Shown here in pieces: positions 1 to 36,893 of a stretch of 36,893 nt of DNA. Position 1 is the first letter of the stretch, and every line of letters starts with the position of its first letter. Where the stretch lies: the IMG/VR virus record IMGVR_UViG_3300010430_000240, positions 1 to 36,893 of that record, one strand, 5' to 3'. A program made the position numbers and the translations under genes. The stretch comes from a virus. The notes beneath the pieces were generated by a model, which was given only the letters and a program-made list of their open reading frames with translations, did not search any database and was not told where the DNA came from.

Positions 1-123
1 CCTGAAGTTTCTCGTTGCGTGGTGCCGCTTCAGCTATTCGAGTAGCGGCCTCATCAGTTAGCTGATCGTTTCGGTGGCTGGTAATGAGCGCATCACTTCC
101 TTCAGTTGCGATTGTGAAAGCCC
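1..123. repeat. Terminal direct repeat, left copy (circle-closing overlap)
   Basis: These 123 bases are identical to 36771-36893. Joining the two copies restores one uninterrupted reading frame through the junction, so the repeat reflects a circular or circularly permuted molecule and not two genomic copies. Headful packaging, as in P22, gives such permuted genomes. An overlap left by the assembler is the simplest explanation, although a true short terminal repeat cannot be excluded from the sequence alone. Confidence 0.95.
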
Positions 124-1957
124 GTTTGCCCGTCTGCCTTGCCAGTATTCCTTGTGCGTCTGCTTCTGCTTTTCTTGGTTTTGTTGCTTTGATGAAATCG
201 ACATAATCTTTTACCTTACCTTGACCTTCACGAATATTAAGCATTGCATCAAGCACAGCCGCCTGATCTGCTCCGAAACCCTCAGACTCATAATGATATT
301 GAGCCGGGATTGTTTTTTCTCCACTACGTTCAGCTAGGTCTAAACGGTGGCGACCGCTGATCACCTCTTTGCGACCATCTTCACGGACCCATATTTGAAT
401 AGGAGCAACACCAGTTCTTTCAAACTTGCCGCCCAATGGTTCAACAACGCCTTTAACGTCAGCGCCTTCTTTGAATTGAGGAACGTCTTCACTAATGGTT
501 ATTTCTTCGATCGGCGCTTCAACAACTTCCTTACCAACGATTTGTTGCTTTACTGGCTTTTCTTCAGGAAGCTCAAGTACAACAGGCTCTTGCTCAGTGG
601 CTTTAGTCTTATCAATTTCAAACTCTTGTTCGACAACTGGCTTGACTGGCTCAAGTTTAGCTTGTGGCTCTTTTGCTTTAAGTTCTTGTTTTTTCTGTGT
701 TTTTTGCTCTTGTTGAATTTGAGCCTGTTCAGGGGATAACGCTTCAATAGCTGCTTGCTCAGTACCTACAACGTCAGTAGCTTCAATATCTTTTTCAAGC
801 TGCTTAGCAATAACCTTTTCAGGTGAATAGTTGATCTCGTTAGCGGTAGCCATAGCACCGCCTCCAGCACCACCAAATACACCGCCAGCAACAGCACCAG
901 CCGCAGCCTGATCAAGTGCCTCTTTCCAATCCATTGCAACGTCAGTGCCGTAACGCTCACCAACGTATTCAATCATGCCTTCCTGAATTGCTTCAGTGGC
1001 CGCTTCTTTGGTCATGGCCTTACCACCAGCAGCAGCAACACGCTTAGTTGATTCTTTAATGCCAGCTTTCAAAATCTCTTTACCGATCTCTTCTTTTCCA
1101 GCCTGGGTAATGCCTTTAGCACCGATACGCTCAAGTAATGAAGCAGCAACGGCAAAAGGCGCAGCTTCAAGAACATCTTCAAGCTCAGCACTTTCCTTAC
1201 CTTTATTTTGGGCTCTCTGTTCTCCAATCTCACCAGAACGGGCAAAGATGTAAGCAGGCAAAGCAGTAATAGCCGCCACCATATCAGGGACCGACTTAAC
1301 ACCTTGCTCAAGACCGTATTCTAAAACGTCAGCATAAGCGCTACCGGACAACGGGCCACCTTCAGAGAATGATTTCTTAACGTCTTCCCATCCGACTTTC
1401 TCTTGATAGCCAAGATCAATATCTTTAAGAACGTCAGCGCCTTTAGTTAAGATTGGTTCAGCTTCTCGCTTAGCCCATTCTTCAGGACCAAGTACAGACG
1501 GGATAATGTCACCATCTTCCCAAACAAGGCCGCCCATAGGAAACTTCTGTTCAAGTCCAGAACCAACCGTTTCAATGGTCTGAAGCAATGCGCCGCCAAC
1601 GTCACCAGCTCGCTCACCAGCGCCAGCGCCCCAGTTTTTAAGCTTGCCGCTAACAAGCTCTAACATGCTTTGTTCTTCAGGTGCCTTCATTGCTGCACCA
1701 GTAAATCCATCAACAGGTTGTTGCTGTGGTATTGATTCTTGTGTGATTGGCTGTGCAATTAATCCAGGCTCTTGCTCTGCCACTGGATCACTAACAACCG
1801 GGTCAATCGGTGCGACTTGAAAGCCAATTGTTTGATTAAATTGCTCGAGTGGAATATCAGAATAGTATTTATTGTGAAGCGCAGTGACTAACTGATCATC
1901 AGCCATGTCATTGTATTGAGGGTTTTGTTCTCTGAAGTTTTTTATGAACTCGCTCAC
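1..1957 (-). CDS. Giant polyvalent ejection-type protein, N-terminal part (continues at 36770 down to 33289)
   Basis: This is the first ~652 codons of an ORF of about 1,812 residues once the circle is closed; the frame is the same on both sides of the junction. The start is GTG at 1957, preceded by AGGAGAGCC. The N-terminus is followed by a Pro/Gln-rich linker. At about residues 347-370 lies an Ala/Gly-rich stretch (AAAGAVAGGVFGGAGGGA), a glycine-zipper-like segment that could insert into membranes. A Lys/Glu/Gln-rich linker follows, then about residues 480-660 match the DdrB-type ParB-like domain, with SGRHRLDLAERSG and TIPAQ. The gene follows two ejection-type genes, in the place of P22 gene 16. 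Family knowledge: such ParB-like domains occur in large polyvalent proteins of phages and conjugative elements. Injection with DNA is inferred. Confidence 0.85.
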   Translation of the reverse strand, partial: MSEFIKNFREQNPQYNDMADDQLVTALHNKYYSDIPLEQFNQTIGFQVAPIDPVVSDPVAEQEPGLIAQPITQESIPQQQPVDGFTGAAMKAPEEQSMLELVSGKLKNWGAGAGERAGDVGGALLQTIETVGSGLEQKFPMGGLVWEDGDIIPSVLGPEEWAKREAEPILTKGADVLKDIDLGYQEKVGWEDVKKSFSEGGPLSGSAYADVLEYGLEQGVKSVPDMVAAITALPAYIFARSGEIGEQRAQNKGKESAELEDVLEAAPFAVAASLLERIGAKGITQAGKEEIGKEILKAGIKESTKRVAAAGGKAMTKEAATEAIQEGMIEYVGERYGTDVAMDWKEALDQAAAGAVAGGVFGGAGGGAMATANEINYSPEKVIAKQLEKDIEATDVVGTEQAAIEALSPEQAQIQQEQKTQKKQELKAKEPQAKLEPVKPVVEQEFEIDKTKATEQEPVVLELPEEKPVKQQIVGKEVVEAPIEEITISEDVPQFKEGADVKGVVEPLGGKFERTGVAPIQIWVREDGRKEVISGRHRLDLAERSGEKTIPAQYHYESEGFGADQAAVLDAMLNIREGQGKVKDYVDFIKATKPRKAEADAQGILARQTGKRAFTIATEGSDALITSHRNDQLTDEAATRIAEAAPRNEKLQ

Positions 1958-2000: not shown

Positions 2001-2879
2001 TCATCGAATACCTAAAGGGTCATTATCAACTGTACTACCAGCGTCAGGAACTTCAAGCCCAAACTTCTGAGCCGCTTGCTTAACTGCTTGCGATCGAGTA
2101 ACACCACCTTCACGGAAAATCTTGGTTGCTTCGGTGGCAATGCCCTGGACCTTATTTCTAACAGTCGGATCAAGATTGGTAATATTGCCAGCCTGATCAA
2201 ACAGTCCGCCAAGCAACTCAACTGACTGGCGATACATCAAGCTTTCATCAGCCGACTTAACGCCACCACCATCAGAACCAGCGCTGGAAGTTTTAACCGG
2301 ACGAGTCTTGCGCTCAACTTCACGGCCAGCTTTATAAACCACATCTTCACCGCCGACCTGAATAGCTTTAGGGTTTTCAAGTAGCTTGTCCATTGCCATA
2401 GCTTTAGATAGTGATAGCTCCATGAATTGAGGGTCGTATTGCTCCGGTAGCTTTGATTGCACTTCAGGAGAAACGCCCTGGTACATTAGCTGATAACGGC
2501 GATCCTGCTCTTCAGGTGTTTTACCTTGAAGCACGTATCCGGCAAGTTGGCCCATTTCATCAACTGACCGCTGAGTTGCTTTAAGCTGTCTGTCATCCAT
2601 CTTGGTAACTGCATCAATAAACGTTGCACCACCTTCAGGATCCAAGGCCAACAATTGCTGTTGTGCGCTAACATCACCACCAACCGCCTTTTGGCGCAGG
2701 CCTGTTAGCAAGTTTTTACGCTCCAATGCTGCGGCCTCTTTTGCTGGTCGTTCTGATATTTCACGCTCCAACTCACCAAGCTGTAACCCAGAAAGCTTAT
2801 TTCGAGTGCGAGCGCCTTCAACCGCTGCTTGTGTTCGGTATATCTCGCCTAAGTCGATACCGTATTGATTAGCTGCCAT
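2001..2879 (-). CDS. Putative DNA ejection (internal virion) protein, P22 gp20 position
   Basis: This 292-residue protein is rich in Gln, Ala and charged residues and has no predicted transmembrane segment. Its first ~100 residues look helical (YRTQAAVEGARTRNKLSG), and a Ser/Gly hinge (SSAGSDGGG) lies near residue 200. Its ATG overlaps the stop of the preceding gene (TAATG), implying translational coupling. It lies between a gp7-like protein and the giant polyvalent gene, where P22 has gp20, which is longer at about 470 residues. The ejection role rests on position and composition; no family motif was recognised. Confidence 0.65.
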   Translation of the reverse strand: MAANQYGIDLGEIYRTQAAVEGARTRNKLSGLQLGELEREISERPAKEAAALERKNLLTGLRQKAVGGDVSAQQQLLALDPEGGATFIDAVTKMDDRQLKATQRSVDEMGQLAGYVLQGKTPEEQDRRYQLMYQGVSPEVQSKLPEQYDPQFMELSLSKAMAMDKLLENPKAIQVGGEDVVYKAGREVERKTRPVKTSSAGSDGGGVKSADESLMYRQSVELLGGLFDQAGNITNLDPTVRNKVQGIATEATKIFREGGVTRSQAVKQAAQKFGLEVPDAGSTVDNDPLGIR

Positions 2880-3568
2880 TACGAAGCCCCCAAAGTTTTA
2901 TACATTAACCAGTTTTGTGCCGCCTGGTTTCCTGCTTGAGCCATGCCTTGATAAGCACCTGCCCGAGCCTGGCCTTGTGCATATTGTGATTGCGCTTGCG
3001 ACTGACCAAGGTTAGAAAGAATATTGCCGCTTGTGCTTGCAAGGTTACTCGTTGCTTGAGCTTGACCAGCAGCAGAAGCCTGGCCACCAGAAGATAACCC
3101 TGAAAGCATGTTGTATTTACGCGCCTTCTCGTTAGCTTCACGAGCATAAGCGTTAGCGTATTCCTGGCTTGCTACATTCTGAGAATAATCAGTAACACCT
3201 TTTTGCTGCGCACCACTCAATAAGCGACCACGAGCAGCCGCCGATTTATCAAGCGCCTCAATGCCCTGGTCCATTCTGAATTGATAACCAGGGTCCTTTG
3301 TTACGTCAATGTCTCCAACTTCAAACGCACCAGACTGAACGCCTTCCCACATTTGATTCAATGCTTGCTCACCAATGTCACGCCAAGGTGCAAAGTCTTC
3401 GCGTTGCTGCTCCGCAAGCTCTCTTTGAAGAGCAACGTTTTCATCAGCTATCGCTTCTTGTGATTTTGCCGACTCTTTGGCTGCTTTCTCTTGTGCCTTT
3501 CCAGACTTATAAGCTGAATATCCACCAACAACAGCAGACCCGACAACCGCCGCCGCAACTACTGACAT
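2879..3568 (-). CDS. DNA transfer / ejection protein, P22 gp7-like
   Basis: The protein has 229 residues, about the size of P22 gp7. The N-terminus (VVAAAVVGSAVVGGYSAY) is a small-residue hydrophobic segment of the kind seen in phage internal virion proteins. It is followed by a Lys/Ala/Glu-rich helix and then FAPWRDIGEQALNQM and DPGYQFRMDQG, a signature common in phage DNA transfer proteins. The C-terminal half is Gln/Ala/Ser/Gly-rich. The start is preceded by AAGGGGGG. By analogy with P22 it is packaged in the capsid and ejected to help build the channel across the cell envelope. It starts 10 bases inside the end of the cupin-like gene. Confidence 0.75.
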   Translation of the reverse strand: MSVVAAAVVGSAVVGGYSAYKSGKAQEKAAKESAKSQEAIADENVALQRELAEQQREDFAPWRDIGEQALNQMWEGVQSGAFEVGDIDVTKDPGYQFRMDQGIEALDKSAAARGRLLSGAQQKGVTDYSQNVASQEYANAYAREANEKARKYNMLSGLSSGGQASAAGQAQATSNLASTSGNILSNLGQSQAQSQYAQGQARAGAYQGMAQAGNQAAQNWLMYKTLGAS

Positions 3569-14026: not shown

Positions 14027-14038
14027 GACAATGAATAT

Positions 14039-16102: not shown

Positions 16103-16119
16103 CTAACAACAAATATTCA

Positions 16120-16530: not shown

Positions 16531-16531
16531 G

Positions 16532-17086
16532 CTAACCCCTTAGATAGTTAACTATCCCTTTTGTGTAGGCTTCAGATAACTCTTCAAACTTGTGGTTAGC
16601 CAGCTCTAATGATGCGTCACTATCAATAAAGAACGGCTCGACAATGACACAAGGCATTGAGGTTTTCTGAAGGAGAAGGCCACCGCGATCGCCAGCTTTA
16701 CCTTTGTGCGAAGCTACGCAAGGTTTAAGGCCGCGATCTTTAAGGCCTAAACACTTAACAACTTGCCCTTGAATGCACGAAGCAAGCAAGAAGCCTTTTG
16801 AGCTGTGCTTGTAGTAAAGCGTTTCTGAGCCGTTTGATTGCTCATTGAAGGCGTTGCAGTGGAATGAAACGGCAATATCAGCTTCAGTTTGATTTACCTT
16901 ACCTGGTAGTGCGGAGTATGAGCAGTCACGATAAATAATGATTGGCTCGTAACCTTCCAGGATAAGTTTTTCAGCTACAGAGTGAGCAAGCGGCCCGTTA
17001 AATTCAAACTCGCTTGTTCCGTAAGTCTTGTTTGTGGCCCCTGGTCTTTTAGCTGAGTGGCCTATGATTAATGCTACTTTTTTCAT
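16532..17086 (-). CDS. Endolysin: N-acetylmuramoyl-L-alanine amidase (Amidase_3)
   Basis: The start used is the ATG at 17086 (MKKVALIIGHS), preceded by AAGG. The longer frame back to 17161 has no good ribosome site and overlaps the upstream gene. The ~184-residue protein shows IIGHS with the first zinc His, EFEFN with the ligand Glu, SFHCNAF with the second His and VEPFF near the C-terminus with the catalytic Glu. It cuts the bond between muramic acid and the peptide stem. There is no signal peptide, so release depends on the holins encoded next to it. Confidence 0.85.
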   Translation of the reverse strand: MKKVALIIGHSAKRPGATNKTYGTSEFEFNGPLAHSVAEKLILEGYEPIIIYRDCSYSALPGKVNQTEADIAVSFHCNAFNEQSNGSETLYYKHSSKGFLLASCIQGQVVKCLGLKDRGLKPCVASHKGKAGDRGGLLLQKTSMPCVIVEPFFIDSDASLELANHKFEELSEAYTKGIVNYLRG

Positions 17087-17093
17087 AAATACC

Positions 17094-17282
17094 TTATTTA
17101 TCAAATACTTGAACTTGAGCCATAACAACTTCTTTGAAGTCTTTCTTGCTGTGACCATCAAAGAACAACCGCTTACTTGCTATTTCTTCAGCGGTTTTGT
17201 AGTTGTCGGTGTTAATTAAGTATTCATGCCTTTGGCCTTTTGACCGTTTAGGCATGAATACAACCTTGATAACGCTATTCAT
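17094..17282 (-). CDS. Hypothetical protein, 62 residues
   Basis: A short basic protein with KRSKGQRHEYLINTDNYKTAEEIASKR, a beta-hairpin plus helix pattern. Its ATG overlaps the stop of the previous gene and its stop lies 7 bases before the amidase ATG, so it is translated in a tight cluster. No family was recognised. Confidence 0.5.
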   Translation of the reverse strand: MNSVIKVVFMPKRSKGQRHEYLINTDNYKTAEEIASKRLFFDGHSKKDFKEVVMAQVQVFDK

Positions 17283-17508
17283 TTAACTTATCTAATTCAG
17301 CTTTCGCCGCAATAAAACAGGCGATCACCGCTACAATTTCATTACCGTGAAACTCTTGGTTCCAAAGTCCCGTTTCACGCAATGCCTTTCTTGCTTCTTT
17401 TGAAAGTACAGTAAGCGCTTCTTCTGCTGTTTTGGCTTCGTTAACGTGAGTAACGTCACCAGCCGGAGCGCTTGCGCCTTTACCGAGTAAGTCTAAAATC
17501 TTTCCCAT
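17275..17508 (-). CDS. Hypothetical protein, 77 residues
   Basis: A small, mainly helical protein (AEEALTVLSKEARKALRETG ... VIACFIAAKAELDKLNE). Its ATG overlaps the stop of the preceding gene (TAATG). It sits at the end of the recombination-gene cluster and before the lysis genes. The function is unknown; the C-terminal hydrophobic stretch is too short to be sure of a membrane helix. Confidence 0.5.
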   Translation of the reverse strand: MGKILDLLGKGASAPAGDVTHVNEAKTAEEALTVLSKEARKALRETGLWNQEFHGNEIVAVIACFIAAKAELDKLNE

Positions 17509-17843
17509 TATCGACCTCGTTGTTGACCGTAACCACCTTGTTGCTGTGGTGCTGCCTGTTGTTGATAGCCGCCAGTTTGTTGAGGCGCTTGGTTCTGGTT
17601 ATCTTCAGAGTTCCAGAAGATATACATTTTAACCGGGCCAGATTGACCGACTGGCATTGTATCAAGCTCAACTTCAATATTAGGCATGTTAGAGCCTTGC
17701 TTGTTAGGCCAAAGAGTTGCGCGGCCTACCGTTGCGTAGCGGTTTTTCATTTGAGGCTGATTGTTCTGATCAAGTTGATTGGTTGGGTACTTCTCAACTA
17801 CTACAGCAACACGGCCTTTATCAAGTGGTGCATTATTTTGCAT
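17508..17843 (-). CDS. Hypothetical SSB-like protein with Gln/Gly-rich tail
   Basis: This 111-residue protein has a beta-rich N-terminal part (GRVAVVVEKYPTN, RYATVGRATLWPN, VKMYIFWNSED) and a disordered tail of about 30 residues made of Gln, Gly, Ala and Arg. That layout resembles single-strand DNA-binding proteins, but the acidic tip typical of bacterial SSB is missing and the tail ends in Arg instead. It is encoded with ERF and exonuclease genes. A DNA-binding accessory role is inferred. RBS AAGG. Confidence 0.45.
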   Translation of the reverse strand: MQNNAPLDKGRVAVVVEKYPTNQLDQNNQPQMKNRYATVGRATLWPNKQGSNMPNIEVELDTMPVGQSGPVKMYIFWNSEDNQNQAPQQTGGYQQQAAPQQQGGYGQQRGR

Positions 17844-17906: not shown

Positions 17907-18728
17907 TTAGCTTTCGCCGATGAAGGTTTTTAGTTCAGAGTCTTTGAACATTTCAACCAGGATTTCTTTGAACTCTTCAGCCATATCTTCTTCTTGAGCT
18001 TCAAGCTTGATAATACGGAAGCAGATTTCAGGCTTCTGGCCGCCAGTTAGAATTGAGACACGAACGGTAAACGCTCGATTAGCTAAACCGTGGTAAGGCT
18101 GGCAAGTAAATTCAATCGTTGCCGGGATCTTGTCCTGGTTCTTGGCTTCAATCTTCTCGAACTCGCTCATAGACTCGCCGAAGTCGCTGACCTTGCTATC
18201 ACGGTTGCTAACTTGCTCGATAGTGATTTCACGTAATTGCTTAGCCGCCTGGCTGTTGGTCATTGGCTCGCCGTCACTGTTCACCACCTTGATATTATCG
18301 GCCCAGTCTTCAACAAAGTTAGCCGCTGCTTTCTGGCTCATGTGATCGCCATTTACGCAAAGGATAGCTTTAAACGCTGCTGTCTTATCAAGCTGAAGCT
18401 TTGAGTTGTGGCGCTGGTGAAGAGGTTTATCTTCTGTGCCAAGGTCAAAGATAGTTTCTGCATACATGCGATCAGAGTTTACAAAACACTTAGCGCCTTC
18501 TTTGTCGAACTCTTTGCAGTATTCACCAAAGTCTTTGATTGATTTGGTTGAGAAGTTGAAGCGGTAAGAAGTGCGGTGCTCCATCTTACCTTCAAGATCA
18601 TGAAGGCCAATACTATCAGGCAAAGCTATCATTGGTGATTGGGTTTTAACTTTGGTAAGTGACTCGCTCACTCCTGCAAGTAGAACAGTTTTCTCAAGGT
18701 GCTGGATCGCTTCTTTAGTCATTGACAT
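17907..18728 (-). CDS. DUF2303 family protein (YfdQ-like)
   Basis: This 273-residue protein fits the DUF2303 family found in many phages and in the E. coli prophage gene yfdQ. Typical blocks are SIGLHDLEGKMEHRTSYRFNF near residue 40, VNGDHMSQKAAANFVEDWADNI near 130 and ITIEQVSNRDSKVSDFGESMSEFE near 170. The family has no assigned function. Here it sits in the early recombination cluster with ERF and exonuclease, which is usual for it. It is most likely soluble. RBS GAGAG. Confidence 0.7.
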   Translation of the reverse strand: MSMTKEAIQHLEKTVLLAGVSESLTKVKTQSPMIALPDSIGLHDLEGKMEHRTSYRFNFSTKSIKDFGEYCKEFDKEGAKCFVNSDRMYAETIFDLGTEDKPLHQRHNSKLQLDKTAAFKAILCVNGDHMSQKAAANFVEDWADNIKVVNSDGEPMTNSQAAKQLREITIEQVSNRDSKVSDFGESMSEFEKIEAKNQDKIPATIEFTCQPYHGLANRAFTVRVSILTGGQKPEICFRIIKLEAQEEDMAEEFKEILVEMFKDSELKTFIGES

Positions 18729-24213: not shown

Positions 24214-24682
24214 ACAGACTATCGAAAGCGTTAAGAATGGGATTGCTCAAACTGTTAAAGCTGGAATTACCTGGCCGCCAAACTTGCCTAAGTTCATTGA
24301 GCTCTGCGAAGGCGTTGAAGATGCTACCGAATCCTTTGACCGCTTCATTGACAAGAAAGAACCTCTTGATCATGCAGAGCTGTTAACCAGGCAGAAAGTA
24401 GGCTTTCAGTGTCGAACTCAGTTACCTGAAGACAAGGCTCGTAAACTTTGGGCTGAAACTATCAGCAAGATAAGAACAAAGATTGCTAACGGTGAAATTA
24501 TCTCACCGGACCCGAAGGCCAAGCGAATCGAAACACCGGAGAAGATGAAAGAAACGCTTACACCGGAACAGCACAACCAACAGCTTGACCGCCAGATTGA
24601 CGAGTTTCTTGCTAAAGGGATTAAGTTGATTGGTCCATTTAAAACCAGATATGAGGAACGAAAGAATGATTCACGTAGTTAG
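24002..24682 (+). CDS. Replication protein P-like helicase loader
   Basis: The start used is ATG at 24002, with GGAGA 9 bases upstream; a TTG two codons earlier is less likely. The ~226-residue protein has WVWLKMVEIYGEQW, LMWKIALNKQTIESVKNGI and TWPPNLPKFIELCEG, the block order of lambda P-type loaders (the 'WPP/PSP...F...C' motif). Its C-terminal part (QLDRQIDEFLAKGIKLIG) recalls the lambda P terminus. It would bring the host DnaB helicase to the O-bound origin. It overlaps the O-like gene by 212 bases in a different frame. The N-terminal ~40 residues are poorly conserved-looking. Confidence 0.7.
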   Translation: MKKLSMDNLHRAVNSQRSNDSNCDFKRSTETNQDSQAADWVWLKMVEIYGEQWVRENGEEPSLMWKIALNKQTIESVKNGIAQTVKAGITWPPNLPKFIELCEGVEDATESFDRFIDKKEPLDHAELLTRQKVGFQCRTQLPEDKARKLWAETISKIRTKIANGEIISPDPKAKRIETPEKMKETLTPEQHNQQLDRQIDEFLAKGIKLIGPFKTRYEERKNDSRS

Positions 24683-26114
24683 CTTCAGCGGTGGAAGAAC
24701 ATCCGCTTATCTTGTCCACCTAATGGAACAGAAGCGCAAGCTTGAAGGTTGTGATGTGAAATACTTGTTCATGGATACCGGAGCTGAGCACCCTAAGACC
24801 TATGAGTTTATCAGGAATGTAGTTAATCACTTTGAAATTGACCTGATATGCCTTCGCACTAAGTTTAATCCTGATCTTGGAAAAGCTAACTCTTTTGATG
24901 TTATTGATATTGATGAATGCAAACCAGATCTGAAGCCTTGGGTTGATATGCTATCGAAGTACGGAACGCCGTATAACCCTGGAGGAGCTTTTTGCACCGA
25001 CAGAATGAAACTTGTGCCATTTAAAAAGTATTGCGATCAGAACTTTGGTAAGGGGAACTACAAAACATGGCTAGGAATTCGAGCCGATGAACCAAAACGA
25101 TTAAAGCCACGCGAAGATGCTGAGTATCTAGCTTCAATTTCTGACTTCGAAAAAGAAGACGTTCTTGACTGGTGGAAAGAGCAGCCATTTGATCTTGAAA
25201 TTCCTGAACACCTTGGAAATTGCGTTTTCTGTATAAAAAAAGGAATCAACAAAGTTGCTTTGGCGATCAAGGACGAGCCAATACTTGCCAAGCAGTTTCA
25301 AGCAGTTTTAGAAGGGGATTCCGTCAGGACTGTAGAAAAAAGAAAATCACCAAGCTTAGAAATGTATCGAGGCAGAAATACATTCGGTGGAGTTATTCAA
25401 ATGTTTGACGACATTGATAGGAATGACCTTGCCGATCAGATTAGAGGCGCGAAAAGAAACGACAGTGGATCGTGCTCTGAGTCGTGTGAGGTTTTTAACG
25501 ATGAATCAATTGCCACTGAAGAAATGAAAAGAGAAGTTGAACAGGAAGCAAGGCAAGTTAAAAAGAAAAGCATGGGAGACCTATGGCGCACACCGCCAGA
25601 AGTGTTTAACACTCTAAACCGTGAGTTTAACTTCATCGCTGATATGGCGTCTAGCAAACATAATGCCTTGTGCGAAACGTTCTTTACAGAAGCGGAAGAC
25701 TCGCTTTCTTTTGATTGGAAATACACAATTGAGTGCGTTATGGGGCATGACTTACCAAATGGCGCTCACTATGTCTGGTTAAATTGCCCGTATAGCAATC
25801 CTATGCCTTGGGTGAAGAAAGCGCTTGAAGCTCAAGCTGGTGGGCTTGGTGTTGTTATGCTGCTTAACGATGACACTAGCGTTGGTTGGTTTGCTGAAGC
25901 CTTGAAAGGTGTTAGCGAGATCCGGCACATAGTTGCCGATGCTACACCGGAAGGTAAGCGCGAGTATTCAACAGGTCGAATTGCCTTCTTAGATGGTGAA
26001 GGTAAACCGATACCAGGAAATAACAAGCCTCAGTTTGTACTTGTGTTTAATCCATTCAAGATAGGCGCACAGGTAACGAGCTATGTTAAGAAGTCCGAAT
26101 TATACGGAGCATAA
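24666..26114 (+). CDS. Fusion of a PP-loop PAPS-reductase-like domain and a phage DNA N6-adenine methylase (Dam)
   Basis: The ATG at 24666 with GAGGAA 7 bases upstream is used. Residues 1-~280 are a PP-loop ATP pyrophosphatase: SGGRTS at 8-13, MDTGAEHP near 36-43, FCTDRMK at 109. Further Cys pairs CVFC (186/189) and CSESC (270/274) could bind a metal or Fe-S cluster. After a charged helical linker (~285-303) follows a Dam-type methylase: DLWRTPPEVF at about 305, FIADMASSKHNALC, then LNCPYS at 372-377 and ADATPEGKREYSTGRIAF. The methylase motif reads NCPY where NPPY/DPPY is usual. Separate PAPS-reductase-like and Dam genes are often neighbours in phages; here they are one 482-residue protein. 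It overlaps the P-like gene by 17 bases. Confidence 0.85.
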   Translation: MIHVVSFSGGRTSAYLVHLMEQKRKLEGCDVKYLFMDTGAEHPKTYEFIRNVVNHFEIDLICLRTKFNPDLGKANSFDVIDIDECKPDLKPWVDMLSKYGTPYNPGGAFCTDRMKLVPFKKYCDQNFGKGNYKTWLGIRADEPKRLKPREDAEYLASISDFEKEDVLDWWKEQPFDLEIPEHLGNCVFCIKKGINKVALAIKDEPILAKQFQAVLEGDSVRTVEKRKSPSLEMYRGRNTFGGVIQMFDDIDRNDLADQIRGAKRNDSGSCSESCEVFNDESIATEEMKREVEQEARQVKKKSMGDLWRTPPEVFNTLNREFNFIADMASSKHNALCETFFTEAEDSLSFDWKYTIECVMGHDLPNGAHYVWLNCPYSNPMPWVKKALEAQAGGLGVVMLLNDDTSVGWFAEALKGVSEIRHIVADATPEGKREYSTGRIAFLDGEGKPIPGNNKPQFVLVFNPFKIGAQVTSYVKKSELYGA

Positions 26115-28148: not shown

Positions 28149-30560
28149 TTATATTTGCTCCCACGAAATGACAGAATTAGCTAGAAGTTTAGCAGGGTTT
28201 CCTGATGCGAAATGCCTAATAACAAAACGAACCTCATCACCAGGCAATAGTTGAAATGTCTCTTCTATTGAAAATGGCTTCTGATCGTTCACAGTTGGGT
28301 TCTGAACGGGCCGCGTAATACCTTCAGATGGCTCACCGGAAGGCCTTGTTGCATTTTGTATCAACACATAGCCGAACTGATCGCCCTCAAGCATTCCGCT
28401 AAAGGTGAACCGGTAGCGACCACCAGTTTTACATATAAACCTCGGAGCAGAATAACGATCAAAAATATCTTGATAGTCATTTGTTGGTGTGTCCATTGAG
28501 GGTTCTGTGCTTGAATCGCTAGGAAGCGTTATGTCAGCAGAATTATAGAACGAACCAAAATCCCTATCGTAATCTGATGTGAATTTTACCGCTGGGTAGT
28601 CTCTAGGCGGCGTCCCTTCAACTGTGACGTGATTGCCGAATATCTCAACAACCCTAGTTTGCCTTACTGCTTTATCGGCAGATTGCCCAATTACAATATC
28701 ACACGCATCAACAAGGCGAGCACCAAGGTAGGTTGTTACTCCGCCTCTTAATATTTCAGACAGGAACGCACAATTATTAAATGTTGCGTTTGCTGATCTG
28801 ATTTCAATCATTCCGAGAACACCAAAATCAGAGACGCTAGTTTGTCCAGTATCGTTTATTGCACCTTCAACTGTCCCACCTTGAAGAATACAACTATTAA
28901 ACGAACATCCATATCTTTCAACATCACCACCAACAACACCGTTGACTCTTAGTATTCCTCCAAACCCATTTTCACAACCGCAACCTGTGAATGCTTGACT
29001 GATACCGCCAACGTCATAAGCAAAGCTACCAACACCCCAATGATCGCAAGCAAGTGAATTGAAGTTTGAGTAAATGGTTTTTAACTCCCAGCCTTCATCA
29101 CACCATGCCGCTCCGCATGATTTCATTGTTAGCGATGTGCCTCCTGGGATTTTCGCAGGTTTTACACAATCAAAAACTCGAACGTTAGATATTTCAGAAG
29201 TGTAAGTTCTAAAATATAAACAATGATTAATTCCCTCTGCGTATATATCGTCAATTTTTATTTGCGCTACTTCCTTACCATATATGCCGTGAATCTGCTT
29301 TTTGTACGGCGTATCTCTAGCATAAAATCCAATTCCAATAAATGTGTAATACCAAGCAGCAGCGCCAGCACCGTCTTGGCTATAACCGATGTTATCAAGA
29401 TTTACACCACCTACACCTGGATTGCCCACACCAGTAACTCTTCTCTGTGCAACTTGGATAACCGCAGGATTTGCTTGGTAATCTGCGAAGTCAGGTAAAG
29501 ACTGCCATTCTGAAGGATATACAAACCCAGACATATCAGAAGATACAATGAATTGCGTAGCCATTGATCCATCACCAACAAATTGAACCCCATCTTTTTG
29601 ATAAAAAAGAATCGGATCTTCAATGAAATATTGGGATGATGGTGCGTAAGCTCTACCTGTTGCTCTTGGCTTTCTTGGATTTGAGCCTGCAACATTTTCA
29701 ATATAATTGACACAAGCCTGAATTTTTGGGCTGTCATTTGTCCCTTCTCCGCCTCCTGCGCCCCAAGCTTTAATGTTATAAGGAGTTCTTAAATTTTGCT
29801 GAAGCTGAAGACCAAGCGTCGGAAGGTCGATATATTTACCGCCGTCATGCGTCCCCGTCCCAGAAGCCACCACTTTAAAAAATAACCTTCCAGAATTATG
29901 CCCTGAAGCATAATCTTCAACTGAAACAAGATTACCTTCCTGTACAGTAAAGCTACCTTCAATTGCGTTTGATGCGTCAATATCAGCAATTGTTTCAAAT
30001 GAATAGCTAGAAACGCCGCCAAGGTCTTTATTGTTAAATGCTGAGTTTTCTCCAACAATAGAAACGCAAACTTCCTCTAAGTTTACATTAATTATGCTCT
30101 GGTCAATTATTACTGTTGTCTCTCCACCAGCGTATGATGAATCAACAATTCTCGCGTAAGAATAACTAACCGTTCCATCGTTAAGCCTTATCTTTCTTTG
30201 TTTTTCAAATACTGAAACAAAGTTTCCTGTCACTTTAAATGTTGTTGGGCTTACATATGTTGCCGACATACAGTTAACCCATTCGTCAGCCATGTTTGAC
30301 GAAACAGGATCGGCGCTCCATATTTCATTTTCATCACTATCTTTAAGGACCATTTTATACTGCCCTGAAAGATAAACATTTGCGTAACCCTCGCCATTTA
30401 AAATCACTGGATTTGAATTTTCTACAATCTGATCTTCAGATTGATAAGTTGACTTAGGTATATTTGTTCTAGCCTGGTAAGTGTATAGCTTACCAGAAGC
30501 TAAAGGCTTACCGTTTCTGTCCCAAGCGTAAAACTTAGGCCCTATCATTGCGACTGCCAT
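28149..30560 (-). CDS. Tailspike protein with right-handed beta-helix
   Basis: The ATG at 30560 (MAVAMIGPKFYAWDRNGKP) follows AGGAGA; a longer frame back to 30704 lies inside the upstream gene. The 803-residue protein has the podophage tail-attachment domain (GKLYTYQARTNIPKSTYQ ... NPVILNGEGYANVYLSGQYKMVLKD) in its first ~100 residues. A neck region follows, then a beta-helix from about residue 265 (IKAWGAGGGEGTNDSPKIQACVN) to about 640, and a C-terminal jelly-roll-like part (RFTFSGMLEGDQFGYVLIQN). It would bind and probably cleave host surface polysaccharide. Catalytic residues cannot be assigned. Confidence 0.85.
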   Translation of the reverse strand: MAVAMIGPKFYAWDRNGKPLASGKLYTYQARTNIPKSTYQSEDQIVENSNPVILNGEGYANVYLSGQYKMVLKDSDENEIWSADPVSSNMADEWVNCMSATYVSPTTFKVTGNFVSVFEKQRKIRLNDGTVSYSYARIVDSSYAGGETTVIIDQSIINVNLEEVCVSIVGENSAFNNKDLGGVSSYSFETIADIDASNAIEGSFTVQEGNLVSVEDYASGHNSGRLFFKVVASGTGTHDGGKYIDLPTLGLQLQQNLRTPYNIKAWGAGGGEGTNDSPKIQACVNYIENVAGSNPRKPRATGRAYAPSSQYFIEDPILFYQKDGVQFVGDGSMATQFIVSSDMSGFVYPSEWQSLPDFADYQANPAVIQVAQRRVTGVGNPGVGGVNLDNIGYSQDGAGAAAWYYTFIGIGFYARDTPYKKQIHGIYGKEVAQIKIDDIYAEGINHCLYFRTYTSEISNVRVFDCVKPAKIPGGTSLTMKSCGAAWCDEGWELKTIYSNFNSLACDHWGVGSFAYDVGGISQAFTGCGCENGFGGILRVNGVVGGDVERYGCSFNSCILQGGTVEGAINDTGQTSVSDFGVLGMIEIRSANATFNNCAFLSEILRGGVTTYLGARLVDACDIVIGQSADKAVRQTRVVEIFGNHVTVEGTPPRDYPAVKFTSDYDRDFGSFYNSADITLPSDSSTEPSMDTPTNDYQDIFDRYSAPRFICKTGGRYRFTFSGMLEGDQFGYVLIQNATRPSGEPSEGITRPVQNPTVNDQKPFSIEETFQLLPGDEVRFVIRHFASGNPAKLLANSVISWEQI

Positions 30561-30561
30561 G

Positions 30562-33282
30562 TTATTTCTCCTGTTTCGCTTCTCGTTTGGCCTTTTGTAG
30601 AGCCTGATTAGCTTGTTGATAATACGTTTCAAATGCCTTATTGCGAGCAATCCATAACTTATCCATTTGCTCACGCTTTTCTTTACCAGACAGATTTTTG
30701 TCATATTTAATTTTCAGCTCTGCGGTTTTGATACCTTCCTTACCATACATTAGCTTAATTAATTGATTCATAGAATCATTCAGGCCAAACAGAACTTCTT
30801 TCTCTTTTCCAGAAAGACCATAAAACTTGTCATCCTTAAATTTACCAGTTCCACCTTGCCCTTTGATTTGTCGTCGAACATCAACGGTTTGTTTAAAGGT
30901 TGAAACTATTTTATCAGACTGTTCTTTTAGGTTGAAAAACTTCTCCATGTTTGCAGTGGCCGGGCGAACGTCAGGAGTAAGGAAGCGGCGCAAGAATACA
31001 TTTTCTGATAACTTGCGATCCGGTTTTTCTCCAAACTTCGATTCATCCCAAAGAAGATGATCTGTTCCAGCCATTAAGTAACCGCCAAGATAGCCAGTGT
31101 AAGCCTTGAACATGTGCTCAGCCTTGATAGGGCTAACCCCTAAAGCCTCACCCATGCGAACAAAGGTTTCACTTGTGTTTGATGTGTACTGTTCAGGCGC
31201 TTCAACATCTGAAAGAGACTGCGGCACCACTGGCGCACCAGTCCATTTCTCATTTCGAACCAAGTCCCACCATCCTGTCATCATTGCCGGAGTTCCATCA
31301 ATGCCGTACATCTGCGTCATGGTCCACAACATACCATCAGCAAACTCTTTGCCCTTGTCATCCTCTACATATTTTGCAAATAGTTCAGGCATCGTTGCAT
31401 AAACAAAACCAACATCATAAGGACGAGGAATTTTAACGAACTGACCGTCACCGATTTTAATATGCCAGTTAGTTCTTTTTTCGTAATCCGGTATTGCTTT
31501 GTAATCTTCGTCATCTTTATTCACCAAATAAAGGATCAGAGTCGGCACCGTAATACCAAGAAACGCCTTCATAGCCATGCCTGTAGGGTTTCCGTCATAA
31601 AGCTTACTCACTGCCGCTTCCCTGAAGACTCGATCCTGTGATTGAACCATCGCGTTTAGGAACGGAACTGTGCGAATGTAGCCAGTCAAGAACCTGTTAG
31701 CACCAAGAACACTAAAGTCAGTTGAGATTTCTCTCGCATCAAAACCAGCGTCCATATCAGACTTCATATTTTTCTTGGCAAGTCTGTATTCACCAATTCG
31801 AGTGCCATATTCAAAGGCACTAGCTAAGTTATCAATGCTGCTTAGTAATCTTTCAGGCCCAGTCATAACACCAAATTCATCAAGCTTAACTCTTCGTCTT
31901 GCCTGGCTATCACGAGTCGCACCTTCCAAACGGCTAGAGTGACCGCCACCGGAGCGAATAAAATCCTGGTAATATTTGTCTTTAGCTAAAAACGAATACA
32001 TACCCTGGAACGAGCTGATAAAAGGCTTGAAGTTGTTCTTGCTAAGGAATGTCGCGCCAACCGTATCACGCACCAGGTTAGCCCCTGTGAACTCAATCCC
32101 TAGCGTAATTGTACGGGTAAAGAAGTTCTTAACACCGAACATCACATTCATAAACGAGCTATAACTTTCAGGGTTCATTGACATAAGCATTTCTTGAAGT
32201 AGTGGATCTTGCACTTCGTAATACTTAGGCTTGCCATTGATGATCACTGAATCAACGATATTACCCGACTCATTAACGCGAGGCGCAACGCCGTGTTGCC
32301 AGAAAGTAAGCAGCTCTTTACTAGCCAAATCAAGATCACCTTCTATCTCAATCCCGTTAGCCTCAAGCACCTTGCTGATCTTCGCTTGCATTTCATCAGC
32401 GTAGACCTGAACAGGTTTAGAGTCCGGCGCTATCTTGGTTGCAAAAATTGCCCCGTCTTTATGCCCTGAAATGTATTGATAAAGTCGCTGCTTAGCTCGG
32501 TTGTTTAATGCCGATCGGACGTTTGCCGTTATGCCGTCTTGAATGTTTACTAAAATATCATTCAGGTTAGCGGTGCCACCTTTAAGCTTTTGGAATCCAG
32601 CACTAGCCGAACCTTTACCACCAGCAAGCTGATCACGGATACGGTTGAAAGGTACATAGTCCTTGTTCATTGACTGCATTGTTTTACGGCCTTCAGGCGT
32701 AATCATTCCGGCCTCTTCGTAAAAGTCCATCATGCGATCATTAAACTGTTGGTATTCTTTCTGGATAGATTCAAACACCGGGTAATCTTTACCAAGGCGA
32801 GCCCATTCTTTAGCGGTTTCTTTAGGGATCAGGTTTTCACGCTTCTGGCGGTGAAGCTCTAACGCCCGGCGCCCGGCAAAGTAACGCATTAGCAAATCAA
32901 TCTTCTGATCGCCTTCATGCTCAGGCTTTAGTTTGATTGTTTTTACTGGCTCCATCACTTCATGCAAGCTTTTACCGCTACGCTTCAGATCGCCTTTCTC
33001 GTCAAACTGTACGGTGCCATAGTTAAGAATGTAATCAGAAATACCTTCCGCACCACCATTAGCAATCCTGAATTGTTTCCAGGCTGACTCTTCAACGGTG
33101 CCAATTTTACGGGTTAGCTCTTGTTCAATCTTTCTAGCTGCATGGAAACGGTCAATAACTTGCTGACGAATACGCGAGTCACGGCGATAAGCCCACTCGT
33201 TAAAGCGCTGCTTAAATGAAACGTCTTGACCAATTAGCGCTTGGCCTAACTTATCAGGACCTTGGAAGTAGAACTTGTGCAT
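30562..33282 (-). CDS. LPD38-type large polyvalent-protein companion
   Basis: This 906-residue protein starts 6 bases after the stop of the giant gene, with TAGGA overlapping that stop. The first ~350 residues are helical and charged. From about 380 to 640 it carries blocks of the LPD38 domain: FFTRTITLGIEFTGANLVRD, DFIRSGGGHSSRLEG, YGTRIGEYRLAKKN, REISTDFSVLGANR, FLNAMVQSQDR, LGITVPTLILYLV (hydrophobic), WHIKIGDGQFVKIPRPYDVG. The C-terminus is basic and helical. Family knowledge: LPD38 often sits at the end of phage polyvalent proteins, and here it is a separate gene. Ejection with the upstream protein is inferred. Confidence 0.75.
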   Translation of the reverse strand: MHKFYFQGPDKLGQALIGQDVSFKQRFNEWAYRRDSRIRQQVIDRFHAARKIEQELTRKIGTVEESAWKQFRIANGGAEGISDYILNYGTVQFDEKGDLKRSGKSLHEVMEPVKTIKLKPEHEGDQKIDLLMRYFAGRRALELHRQKRENLIPKETAKEWARLGKDYPVFESIQKEYQQFNDRMMDFYEEAGMITPEGRKTMQSMNKDYVPFNRIRDQLAGGKGSASAGFQKLKGGTANLNDILVNIQDGITANVRSALNNRAKQRLYQYISGHKDGAIFATKIAPDSKPVQVYADEMQAKISKVLEANGIEIEGDLDLASKELLTFWQHGVAPRVNESGNIVDSVIINGKPKYYEVQDPLLQEMLMSMNPESYSSFMNVMFGVKNFFTRTITLGIEFTGANLVRDTVGATFLSKNNFKPFISSFQGMYSFLAKDKYYQDFIRSGGGHSSRLEGATRDSQARRRVKLDEFGVMTGPERLLSSIDNLASAFEYGTRIGEYRLAKKNMKSDMDAGFDAREISTDFSVLGANRFLTGYIRTVPFLNAMVQSQDRVFREAAVSKLYDGNPTGMAMKAFLGITVPTLILYLVNKDDEDYKAIPDYEKRTNWHIKIGDGQFVKIPRPYDVGFVYATMPELFAKYVEDDKGKEFADGMLWTMTQMYGIDGTPAMMTGWWDLVRNEKWTGAPVVPQSLSDVEAPEQYTSNTSETFVRMGEALGVSPIKAEHMFKAYTGYLGGYLMAGTDHLLWDESKFGEKPDRKLSENVFLRRFLTPDVRPATANMEKFFNLKEQSDKIVSTFKQTVDVRRQIKGQGGTGKFKDDKFYGLSGKEKEVLFGLNDSMNQLIKLMYGKEGIKTAELKIKYDKNLSGKEKREQMDKLWIARNKAFETYYQQANQALQKAKREAKQEK

Positions 33283-33288: not shown

Positions 33289-36200
33289 CTACATATCACG
33301 CATAGGATTAAGCAGCTTACGATCACGCGCTAACTCATTGGTAAACGCATCATAGAACTTAGGCGCTCTTAATTGCGCTTCATTGGCATTCGTTAGCCAT
33401 AGGCGCACAAACTCAGCGAAACCTTCAATTTTTTCAATCTTCGGATCAGCATCGGTATAACTAAGAGCGGCCACTTCACTAGAATACTTCGGATCTTTAT
33501 AAAGTTTCTGGAAGTTAGGCAGAGTGATATTTGAATACACATCAAGATAGTGGGCCATTTCATGCGCCAACACTTCAACGTCATTCTTGCGGCGCGTTCT
33601 GATTTCGCCAACGTTAGGACGATAGAAACCTTCAGCAGACTTACCTTTGATTTTCCCAAAGTAAATACGGCGGCCAGTGATCTTAATCAGCTTGCTCATG
33701 ATCGGCTCAATGCGTTGCGGCGCATCAGGTATCTTTAACTTGCGGCCTTCAATGGTTACAAAGTCACGGCGCTCAGGTATCCCGGTTGAACGGAACATGC
33801 CAATGAAGTTATGACCAGGCGCATGAAATACACGCTCACCGTCTTTCGGTGTAGGTGAAACTTTACTGTCATCCTTCTTGTAGTTAAGCGTGTTGGTGTC
33901 GTTTTTCTCAATCGTCACCATTACAGTGTTAACGCCAGTCGAACGCTCTGAACCTTTAAAGCTTCCTTCAGGTAAGTCTTCAATGTAACTGCCAGCATCA
34001 TCAAGCCACTCACGGAACTCAACAGCCTTCTTGCGCGAGTTCTTCACTCCGGCACCCATGATAGCCACAAGTTTTCCACCAGGTTTTAACAGGTCATAAG
34101 CATGTTTTACATGGTCAATATCCTGGAAGTTCTCAAACGGTGGATTCATCACAATGCGGTCATACTGCTTGCCGGAGTATTCAAGGAAGTCATTACCAAC
34201 AACGTTATAGCCTTTCACTTCAAGTAATGAAGCAAGTGAAGTGTTGTATTCAACAACATCAAGCGAGGCATCCGGCGCGGAAACCATGATCTGATCTGCA
34301 ATGTTGCCTTTACCAGCGGAAGGCTCTAAAACCTCATGCCCTGGTTTAATGTCTGCATAGTCAATCATCTGATCTACTAATGGCGTAGGCGTAGGAAAGA
34401 AGCCTTCAATCTTCTTCCCAACCAAATCACGCTCAAGCTTTTTAACTGGGTCTTCTTGTCGCTTAGCCACTCGAAGAGAATCAAGCTCACGAATAGCGGC
34501 ACGTAACTGCTCACCAGTAGAGATCCCTAACTTGCCTAATCGGTTTAAAGTGGCAACCTGATCCGGTAGCCAGCTAAGAGAATAAGCTTCAAGTAATCCG
34601 GCTTTATTGGCTGCCATGATCTTGTCAGCTTGCTCTTTCGTAAGCTTACGAAGTGAATCACGCTTACCTTTTGGAAGCTTGCGAAGTTCAGCGGATAGGC
34701 GAGCATAACCGCGCTTACCTTTTAAGGTGTCGGCCACACGTTCAATAACGCCGCTATCAAGCTCGATACCAGGGAAATCAACACGGTTAATGTAGTCGTC
34801 AACCGTCACACCTTCTTTAAGTGGTCGGCTAATTGAGTACCCATCAAACGAACCTTGTTCATAAAGTTCATTAGGGATTGCACGTTTCTGGATAGTGATC
34901 AGCTCTTCAAGCTGTGTAACCTGGCTCATTTGGCCCAGGTGTTTAACTTCACCTTCCTGAAGCTTGATCGCGATATTGCGAACCGTCTTAGCTAAAGCTA
35001 GTTGCTTCTCAGCTCTCTCAGTGGCGTTAGCAGCCATTGAAGCGCGTCTTGCTGTGTTAGCTTGTCTTGGTCGATTAATCTCTTCTGTGGCCTTGGCCTC
35101 CATCTTTTCAGCCATGTTTAGAAGCTTGTCAGCGTTCTTTGACTGTTTAACTTCAGCTTTAGCTTCTGCAAAGTCGCTTTTATCCACATCTTTGCCAGAT
35201 AGCAACTGCTCAAACTGATCAGCTGCTTCAACCGTTTTAAATTGAAAGCCTGGTATCGCGTCACCTTTTGAGTAAGAAGAGTAATAGCCGCCTAACTGCT
35301 TAGCCTTTCCGCTTAGCTCTCTGAATTGTTCTTTAGGTACACGGCCAACCATTTTAACTACAAACAGATCCGCACCTGTTTTAGTGTGTTTGGTTTGCGC
35401 TCGCTCAGTGGTTACGGCTTCTGCTTCAGCCTTTACAACATCAGGCTTAACTTCAGCCATTGATTCAGCAACAAGCTCGTCATAAGCGGCCAGTTGTTCA
35501 GGGCTCATTTTGTCTTTACCACGAACACGGATGAACTCTTTAAACTCTGGCAAGGTTTCAGGGTTAGATAGTGATTTTACAAACTCGTCTTTACGCTGCT
35601 TGATTTGAGCGCGGTATTCACGTTGCTTTTCATAAGCTGCGTCAACATCTGCTTGAGTCTGCTTATTAATCTTCTCCATCATTTGTTGTTCGTAGGTTTT
35701 AGAGCCGCCGAAGATGGTAAAAGTAGCATCGCCCATAACGTGGGCCGCAAGCATTGACTCATACGCACTCTTAACCATTTGAGGCTTTTTAAGATCAGAG
35801 CGTGGCGAGTGAGTTATTTGCTGAAGCATTGCCTTGGTGAACTTGCGATCACTCATCTTGGCAATGATAGCGTCTTTGTTTTTAACCAGGCTTTCGGCAT
35901 CGGCTTTAATCTCGCCAACAGTAGCGGTTTGATTGGCTACCGACTCCATGAAAGAACGATAAGCTTGTGCTGGATCAGTGGCGTAGTCTGGTTTAGGTGC
36001 TGGCACTTTATCAGCATCAGTTAAACCTTTGCCTTTCTTCTTGCTAACAGACTCGACAACTTCAGACATTGGCTTGGTTGGTTTTTTAACTGGCTCCGGT
36101 TTATCAGCTTTAACGATAGAACCAAAGTCATGCCATACGCCTTTAATCTTGGCTTGCTGCTTAGCTTGAGAAATGCCTTCAATTTCGCCACCATCAAAGA

Positions 36201-36893
36201 AGGTGCCTTTGCTATCACTCTTTACTGCCTTGGCATATTCACCGCGAGTAAATGACTGCTCAGCCGGACCGCCTTCACTGTCTTTAGCGTTCCAGTTGGT
36301 AAAGGTATCTTTCTCTTTAGGTGAAGGTTTCGCCGCTGGCTCTGGTGTTGGTGCCTTAGCTTCTTCCGTGATCGCTGGCTTCTCATCAGTTACCGCCTTT
36401 TCAGGTTGAGCTTTAAGCTCTTGGGTTAACTTAGGGTTAGTATGCCAGTTTTGCCAATCACGTTTTTGCTCTTTCAGTTCAGCAATACGGGCCTTGATAG
36501 CTTCAGGGTTTTTAACGTCAACGCCTTCTTTAGCGGCTAACTCTGGTCGCTTAGCTGCGCCCTGTACCGCCGACAAAGTTTTTTGAATTTCGCTTTGCTT
36601 CTTAACCGCTGCTTTCGCCAGGTTTTCAGCTTCGACCATTGCGGAATCATCAAAGCCAAACAGATCACCGCTTTGCTGCGCGGTTTCGTCAGTCATGGTT
36701 TTAACGGCTTTAACCATGTTCTCAGCAACGGCAATATTTTTGCCTTCTTGAACGGCCTTAATGCCAACAGCCTGAAGTTTCTCGTTGCGTGGTGCCGCTT
36801 CAGCTATTCGAGTAGCGGCCTCATCAGTTAGCTGATCGTTTCGGTGGCTGGTAATGAGCGCATCACTTCCTTCAGTTGCGATTGTGAAAGCCC
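33289..36893 (-). CDS. Giant polyvalent ejection-type protein, C-terminal part (methyltransferase and metallopeptidase)
   Basis: This is the continuation of the frame that starts at 1957; bases 36771-36893 duplicate 1-123. Residue numbers here are for the joined 1,812-residue protein. After Lys/Glu-rich helices come small domains of the LPD kind (FTRGEYAKAVKSDSKGTFFDGG; LFVVKMVGRVPKEQFRELS with LGGYYSSYSKG). Near residue 1466 VLEPSAGKGNIADQI is the SAM-binding motif I, and near 1529 IVMNPPFEN is the N6-adenine methylase motif IV. Near 1722 VLAHEMAHYLD is a HExxH zinc site, and EGFAEF about 40 residues later can supply the third ligand. It ends MRDM. The gene precedes the LPD38-type gene. Confidence 0.85.
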   Translation of the reverse strand, partial: AFTIATEGSDALITSHRNDQLTDEAATRIAEAAPRNEKLQAVGIKAVQEGKNIAVAENMVKAVKTMTDETAQQSGDLFGFDDSAMVEAENLAKAAVKKQSEIQKTLSAVQGAAKRPELAAKEGVDVKNPEAIKARIAELKEQKRDWQNWHTNPKLTQELKAQPEKAVTDEKPAITEEAKAPTPEPAAKPSPKEKDTFTNWNAKDSEGGPAEQSFTRGEYAKAVKSDSKGTFFDGGEIEGISQAKQQAKIKGVWHDFGSIVKADKPEPVKKPTKPMSEVVESVSKKKGKGLTDADKVPAPKPDYATDPAQAYRSFMESVANQTATVGEIKADAESLVKNKDAIIAKMSDRKFTKAMLQQITHSPRSDLKKPQMVKSAYESMLAAHVMGDATFTIFGGSKTYEQQMMEKINKQTQADVDAAYEKQREYRAQIKQRKDEFVKSLSNPETLPEFKEFIRVRGKDKMSPEQLAAYDELVAESMAEVKPDVVKAEAEAVTTERAQTKHTKTGADLFVVKMVGRVPKEQFRELSGKAKQLGGYYSSYSKGDAIPGFQFKTVEAADQFEQLLSGKDVDKSDFAEAKAEVKQSKNADKLLNMAEKMEAKATEEINRPRQANTARRASMAANATERAEKQLALAKTVRNIAIKLQEGEVKHLGQMSQVTQLEELITIQKRAIPNELYEQGSFDGYSISRPLKEGVTVDDYINRVDFPGIELDSGVIERVADTLKGKRGYARLSAELRKLPKGKRDSLRKLTKEQADKIMAANKAGLLEAYSLSWLPDQVATLNRLGKLGISTGEQLRAAIRELDSLRVAKRQEDPVKKLERDLVGKKIEGFFPTPTPLVDQMIDYADIKPGHEVLEPSAGKGNIADQIMVSAPDASLDVVEYNTSLASLLEVKGYNVVGNDFLEYSGKQYDRIVMNPPFENFQDIDHVKHAYDLLKPGGKLVAIMGAGVKNSRKKAVEFREWLDDAGSYIEDLPEGSFKGSERSTGVNTVMVTIEKNDTNTLNYKKDDSKVSPTPKDGERVFHAPGHNFIGMFRSTGIPERRDFVTIEGRKLKIPDAPQRIEPIMSKLIKITGRRIYFGKIKGKSAEGFYRPNVGEIRTRRKNDVEVLAHEMAHYLDVYSNITLPNFQKLYKDPKYSSEVAALSYTDADPKIEKIEGFAEFVRLWLTNANEAQLRAPKFYDAFTNELARDRKLLNPMRDM
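36771..36893. repeat. Terminal direct repeat, right copy
   Basis: Identical to 1-123. It marks where the circle closes, and the unique length is 36,770 bp. Confidence 0.95.

Follow-up and report, generated by a model that had tools for sequence, protein, structure and literature searches.

Polyvalent proteins are a class delineated computationally, and for the most part one can only guess at the role of their cargo once it has entered the cell. In the available sections of the survey of Iyer 2017 (PMC5512222), those of phages are proposed to be injected and to be cut by their own metallopeptidase (MPTase), and the LPD38 domain is reported only from phage-type polyvalent proteins. For JC1 gp69, a protein of 4,515 amino acids with LPD38 at 4195-4401, 51 unique peptides were recovered from CsCl-purified virions (PMC9144972). 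Our literature search on LPD38 or polyvalent proteins combined with proteomics returned Iyer 2017 and the JC1 study as the only relevant ones. Here we describe a giant gene in the IMG/VR virus record IMGVR_UViG_3300010430_000240, a virus contig that was analysed over its whole length of 36,893 nucleotides (the window). Its product is likely to be a polyvalent-class ejection protein of a P22-like marine podophage, of the Shewanella phage X14/Vibrio phage group, with swappable cargo.

Extent of the giant gene

The record ends in an exact terminal repeat of 123 bp, which gives a circle of 36,770 bp. With the repeat removed, the minus-strand frame that starts at GTG 1957, runs to position 1 and continues from 36770 to 33289 is open over 1,812 codons, and AGGAGA lies immediately 5′ of the GTG. 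The repeat was trimmed before the ends were joined; as its length is a multiple of three, an untrimmed join would insert 41 in-frame residues, and this in-frame duplication of 41 codons was avoided. The preliminary description had presented the joined frame, from GTG 1957 to 33289, as one open reading frame (ORF) of about 1,812 residues. The frame is indeed open across the junction, but it is not the whole gene: it ends at a TAG, which is followed by two codons in the same frame and then by the ATG of an ORF of 906 amino acids (33282-30562). The parts of the gene are as follows.

2..1957, minus strand: giant protein, first 652 codons, from the GTG start at 1957 and running on over the circle junction
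33289..36891, minus strand: giant protein, codons 613-1812 plus TAG; the window's final 123 bp are a copy of its first
33291-33289, minus strand: in-frame TAG that cuts the giant gene, a sense codon in 19/19 relatives spanning the site
30562..33282, minus strand: C-terminal third of the giant gene, 906 amino acids, the carrier region with LPD38; in frame, matched by PHROG_15406 and part of a single ORF in relatives

The 1,812-codon ORF makes up only the N-terminal two thirds of a single gene, because relatives read through the stop, PHROG_15406 (2,789 positions) is colinear across both ORFs, and codon changes are mainly synonymous on both sides of the stop (286 synonymous and 61 non-synonymous changes before it and 179 and 11 after it, relative to X14). 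The combined frame comprises 2,721 codons and is interrupted by one internal stop, against a chance expectation of about 153. All 19 records spanning the TAG site carry one uninterrupted ORF of ~2,700 amino acids. In Shewanella phage X14 and Vibrio phages D478 and 1.211.A, the giant protein is a single coding sequence of ~2,715-2,741 amino acids, with 97, 96 and 90% identity, respectively, to that of the window. Even in Vibrio phage VvAW1 (35% identical), the residue at the TAG site is Q, the same as in near relatives. A frameshift at the circle junction was ruled out by the same kind of comparison: the relatives are continuous there, and X14 and D478, which were sequenced independently, have the same protein (96-97% identity), so the junction proposed in the preliminary description is sound.

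The TAG may have arisen by mutation, may be a variant within the population or an error of assembly, or may mark a functional split. Unless it is an assembly or population artefact, the assembled genome would yield two chains or a truncated protein. A functional split would give a cargo-plus-peptidase chain of 1,812 amino acids and a separate LPD38 chain of 906 amino acids, the latter arising through re-initiation at the ATG that follows the TAG after two codons. An AGGA just ahead of this ATG would permit re-initiation, and the downstream frame is fully intact. A second stop in this stretch occurs in contig L150, where an in-frame TAA around position 10673 separates the peptidase ORF from the LPD38-containing ORF. 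In L048-L051, a ParB-like cassette (described below) lies in ORFs of ~960-1,140 amino acids, while the LPD38 region forms part of a separate ORF several kb further downstream; these are apparently split versions of the giant. We nevertheless consider a functional split rather unlikely, as the 19 relatives spanning the site all read through it, some of them at 96-97% identity, and the AGGA belongs to the shared coding sequence and was not gained along with the stop. For annotation, the consequence of the stop is that gene callers would give two unrelated genes.

Domains of the giant protein

The preliminary description had assigned a glycine-zipper-like segment, a DdrB-type ParB-like domain, small LPD-type domains, an S-adenosylmethionine (SAM) methylase with NPPF and a HExxH...E peptidase to the 1,812 residues, and it had proposed a Pfam profile search of the joined ORF. 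That search recovered the methylase; it gave no LPD family inside the ORF, even at an expect value (E) of up to 1. The sole LPD family, LPD38, lies just beyond these residues. The glycine runs, the methylase and the peptidase all stand, whereas the ParB-like part is better matched by another type than the one proposed. The assigned regions are as follows.

1820..1957, minus strand: conserved N-terminal 46 residues (FRxxNPxYxDMxDxQLxxALHxKYYSDIPxxxF), kept in relatives
758..1777, minus strand: N-terminal segment, about residues 61-400, with GxxxGxxxG runs; two alleles among relatives
1..520, minus strand: ParB-like cassette, from residue 480, with GRHR at nucleotides 344-355
36691..36770, minus strand: end of the ParB-like cassette (to residue 679), the domain spanning the circle junction
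33928..34398, minus strand: predicted SAM-dependent N6-adenine methylase core
33292..33810, minus strand: zincin-like metallopeptidase, residues 1640-1812
30994..31512, minus strand: LPD38, a phage-type polyvalent-protein domain (PMC5512222)

The peptidase has HExxH at residue 1722 (HEMAH, nucleotides 33550-33564) and EGFAE at residue 1768 (EGFAEF, from 33426), and both motifs are invariant in an alignment of 47 sequences. Its AlphaFold2 (AF2) model has a predicted local distance difference test score (pLDDT) of 81 and matches zincin catalytic domains (Foldseek E ~0.01; VIA Z ~9 over 126-129 residues). The Pfam MPTase-PolyVal model matches 6 of the 47 peptidase relatives, with a best value of 0.0038. 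Relative to X14, the peptidase core shows 25 synonymous and no non-synonymous codon changes. Together, motifs and model support the prediction of a zincin-type peptidase with HExxH and a downstream Glu. A likeness to toxin-type and Pro-Pro zincins was not used as a clue to function, being at superfamily level only (Foldseek E ~0.01). Self-processing would suit this peptidase better than an attack on host proteins, because it adjoins the constant carrier.

The methylase core is matched by Pfam MTS (9.6e-06, above cut-off) and carries FPTP at residue 1444, EPSAGKGN, and NPPF at residue 1528 (nucleotides 34135-34146), all three of which are invariant in an alignment of 17 sequences. A SAM core, an NPP(Y/F) motif and an upstream TP motif support its prediction as an N6-adenine methylase of the gamma type. 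Codon changes in the core relative to X14 are again almost entirely synonymous (19 synonymous, 1 non-synonymous), and relatives of this part include giants of Pseudomonas phages. A Pfam search found no helicase family in the giant protein, while the same kind of search gave ResIII/SNF2 for VvAW1. Elsewhere in the window, one plus-strand ORF (24669-26114) combines a PAPS-reductase-like part (PF01507) with a Dam-type adenine methylase (PF05869, E 3e-39), and is possibly a second DNA modification activity.

The ParB-like cassette was found in 68 viral contigs, nearly always in ORFs of 1,000-4,000 amino acids, the shorter ones being split or cut by a contig end; no plasmid copies were found. Its GRHR (GxRR box) is nearly invariant, and the R of the second box (ENxxR) is present in 39/40 members, while the glutamate of that box is E in 30/40 members and M in the window. 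The AF2 model (pLDDT 91) covers the nucleotide-binding fold and the helix-turn-helix in its Foldseek and VIA matches to ParB, Noc and KorB. The VIA alignments with Noc 7nfu (Z 11.4 over 165 residues, root-mean-square deviation (rmsd) 3.3) and ParB 6t1f (Z 11.3 over 159 residues, rmsd 4.2) span both domains. Pfam ParB_N matches 23/40 cassette members and ddrB-ParB 0/40, although the latter model matched no control genome either; an hhalign comparison with P1 DdrB gave a probability of 0.2%. The ddrB-ParB negatives and the positive structural matches thus support a chromosomal ParB/Noc-like domain of the ParB_N/Noc type rather than of the DdrB type, DdrB having been compared by sequence profile alone.

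The GxxxGxxxG runs lie at residues 110-122 and 354-367 (the latter at nucleotides 857-898). Over the gene as a whole, the most hydrophobic stretch is found not in these runs but at codon 2384, in the LPD38 region. LPD38 itself is matched far above cut-off (Pfam E 4.4e-48), and comparison of this region with solved structures by sequence gave chance-level matches only. The middle of the protein (~780-1290) has no Pfam match. The 46-residue N-terminal motif shows weak similarity to sequences in Ruegeria phage 45A6 and Pelagibacter phage HTVC106P, and could serve as a packaging or ejection tag common to these phages.

Conserved frame, cargo bay and the gp16 slot

Of the 55 distinct 3′-closed ORFs among the peptidase relatives, 54 have the LPD38 region after the peptidase, within one and the same ORF. 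The length from the peptidase to the C-terminus is nearly constant (median 1,089 amino acids, coefficient of variation (CV) 0.11), whereas the part upstream of the peptidase ranges from none to 2,974 amino acids (CV 0.60). Compared at the DNA level with V. crassostreae phages, the window gene is 93.9% identical from codon 772 on and 80.8% identical over codons 1-427, with no detectable DNA similarity between codons 427 and 772. Judged by these comparisons, the layout is that of a conserved frame (an N-terminal segment, and a peptidase plus LPD38 of ~1,080 amino acids) around an exchangeable cargo bay.

ParB occupies the bay in the window, X14, D478, 1.211.A, L010 and L019. Other relatives carry a zincin-like motif without a family match (the 41E34.2 group), a GNAT part above the Pfam cut-off (L015), an unassigned cassette (BA3 and L104/L113), a helical cargo that we could not assign (FGH/L018), ParB with a SprT-like zincin (L016), ParB with two GNAT-like parts (L111), or an ART-PolyVal-like part with GNAT (L113). 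L109 and L115 lack both a methylase and any recognised cargo, and their peptidase-LPD38 cores are 75-83% identical. In L104, neither NPPF nor the SAM motif survives in the methylase (about codons 930-1080 of the giant ORF), while the other parts of the frame are kept; by its sequence, this methylase is a decayed cargo. The ParB cassette of L016 is more similar to that of the window (81.6%) than is its downstream flank (74.5%), the pattern that exchange predicts.

The gene order of P22 is 3-2-1-8-5-orf69-4-10-26-14-7-20-16-9. In the window, the terminase, portal, scaffold and coat genes are followed by a small ORF, the gp4-like and gp10-like genes, two small tail ORFs, the gp7-like gene, the gp20-slot ORF, the giant and a tailspike-type gene; the portal matches that of P22 with E 5e-40. 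The two genes ahead of the giant are as follows.

2879..3568, minus strand: gp7-like DNA ejection protein (PHROG_598, E 2.5e-46)
2001..2879, minus strand: gp20-slot ORF (PHROG_36852), its C-terminal part exchanged along with the giant in 1.184.A

Vibrio phage 1.184.A (L174) is closely related to the window in its portal (93% identical), gp4 (96%), gp10 (95%) and gp7-like protein (91%), but has no giant. In the giant's place (1.184.A 13275-17550), it encodes a protein of 819 amino acids that resembles the "DNA transfer protein" of an Aeromonas phage (29.7% over 81%). In its gp20-slot protein, only the first 215 residues are retained (86%), the rest being divergent, and ahead of its tail fibre gene lies a scar of the giant's C-terminal codons, with 87% DNA identity. 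Going by these sequences, the giant and an ordinary DNA-transfer protein are interchangeable in the gp16 slot, because 1.184.A has both the 819-amino-acid replacement and the scar of the giant. The placing of a polyvalent protein where P22 has gp16, as the preliminary description had it, agrees with the P22-like order, the enzyme domains with LPD38 and this replacement.

In the window, the first ATG of the tailspike ORF (28149-30704, minus strand) falls within the end of the giant gene. The true start of the tailspike is probably internal to this ORF, because relatives start the gene 2 nucleotides after the giant's stop.

Proposed packaging and delivery, and comparison with known systems

The giant combines disparate activity-type domains in one frame (with one stop here), LPD38 and a location among virion genes, all of which point to the polyvalent class. 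That it is packaged and injected is suggested by analogy with JC1 gp69, an LPD38-ended giant found in virions. The ~2,700-amino-acid protein would be packaged alongside the gp7-like and gp20-slot proteins in the head, which it would leave ahead of the DNA. The peptidase, located exactly between cargo and carrier, would then separate the cargo. The ParB-like part, with its DNA-binding cytidine triphosphatase (CTPase) fold, and the methylase part would subsequently act on the entering genome, protecting or organising it. Among such roles we would place shielding of the entering genome from host restriction first, at roughly even chances of being correct. More tentatively, and with a low probability, the gp16 slot could be pictured as a payload bay. 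A conserved self-cleaving launcher of peptidase and LPD38 would be loaded by recombination with different cargos; here these would be a ParB-type clamp on the entering genome and an adenine methylase, forming an injected clamp-and-modify device not described before.

Alternatively, the protein might not be packaged, being made late and modifying progeny DNA or host proteins within the producing cell. In its favour, a methylase acting from within can protect progeny DNA, free methylases are encoded by other phages, and this phage has its own Dam-type gene. We regard this explanation as highly improbable, given that the giant is part of the virion gene block and occupies the gp16 slot, where a DNA-transfer-type protein can replace it, that LPD38 is reported solely from phage-type polyvalent proteins in the available sections of Iyer 2017 (PMC5512222), and that the LPD38-ended JC1 giant is present in virions (PMC9144972).

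Several points weigh against a packaged giant with active cargo. Equivalence of the slot to P22 gp16 is one of gene order and replacement, because phmmer and hhalign detected no homology of the carrier to P22 gp16 or gp20. The likeness to JC1 was judged only via the shared Pfam domain given in PMC9144972, and no virion proteomics for this phage group was found in the literature. With its TAG, this particular genome may make no full-length protein. Cytidine triphosphate (CTP) hydrolysis by the ParB part is doubtful, because the E of ENxxR is replaced by M in the window. Finally, cargo activity is dispensable, because the L104 methylase is degenerate and L109 and L115 are without recognisable cargo.

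The last two points also bear on the alternative that this ejection protein has a structural role only and that its enzyme-like domains are relics. The L104 frame is kept with a ruined methylase, L109 and L115 manage with no recognised cargo, and the catalytic glutamate position of ParB is not conserved in the window. The methylase and zincin motifs, however, are invariant in 17 relatives, and changes in both cores relative to X14 are nearly all synonymous, which makes relics an improbable explanation. We therefore retain the reading of a polyvalent-class ejection protein with swappable cargo. Natural plaque-forming phages with nearly identical virions differ in their cargo (ParB in X14 and 1.211.A, a zincin-like part in 41E34.2, and another in BA3), and 1.184.A swaps the whole giant for a DNA-transfer-type protein, so that they form a natural comparison set. 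This near-isogenic set allows a direct test of injected cargo against survival of host defences, and of cargo release by the peptidase.

Among known proteins, the closest are the PHROG_15406 giants of X14 (QCQ65278), D478, 1.211.A, 41E34.2 and Thalassomonas phage BA3, which are the same protein in the same gene order, ~75-98% identical outside the bay. They differ in having an uninterrupted ORF of ~2,630-2,740 amino acids and, in several cases, other cargo in place of ParB. Deposited close homologues are labelled as DNA methylase or hypothetical, QCQ65278 of X14 being a "DNA methylase subunit". More distant is VvAW1 gp1 (3,640 amino acids, "DNA methylase"/"DarB-like antirestriction"), which occupies the same slot and shares the peptidase and LPD38 C-terminus at 35-47% identity, but has an Eco57I-type methylase and SNF2 helicase, a DarB-like pair, and no detected ParB cassette. 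JC1 gp69 and the Bcep22 giant, from Burkholderia podophages, likewise combine a methylase with LPD38 near the C-terminus, and differ in their lytic transglycosylase-like, SNF2-like and LPD3 parts (PMC9144972). A DUF2303 protein is also encoded in the early region of the window (17907-18728, minus strand); a JC1 DUF2303 protein is reported in virions (PMC9144972), and by analogy this product may be packaged too.

P22 gp16 has the same place in the gene order, but has 609 amino acids and no enzyme domains. P1 DdrB (ParB superfamily plus MPTase) and DarB (methylase) share the logic of virion-borne antirestriction; DarB has a helicase, whereas none was found in the window giant. As far as the available sections of Iyer 2017 (PMC5512222) describe them, the polyvalent proteins resemble the window protein in being multidomain giants of the late virion gene block, with a zincin MPTase, an adenine methylase, a ParB-superfamily domain and LPD38 in one frame. 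In the same sections, the methylase is nearly always fused to a SWI2/SNF2 helicase, which the window methylase lacks, and the archetypes have ParB domains of the DdrB type, unlike the ParB_N/Noc type with helix-turn-helix found here. We found no description there of cargo exchange between near-identical phages, and none in the literature of near-isogenic cargo exchange or of the replacement of a giant by a DNA-transfer protein. The polyvalent class as such is already published (Iyer 2017, PMC5512222); what the window and its relatives add is the truncation, the ParB subtype, the near-isogenic cargo swaps and the natural replacement of the giant.

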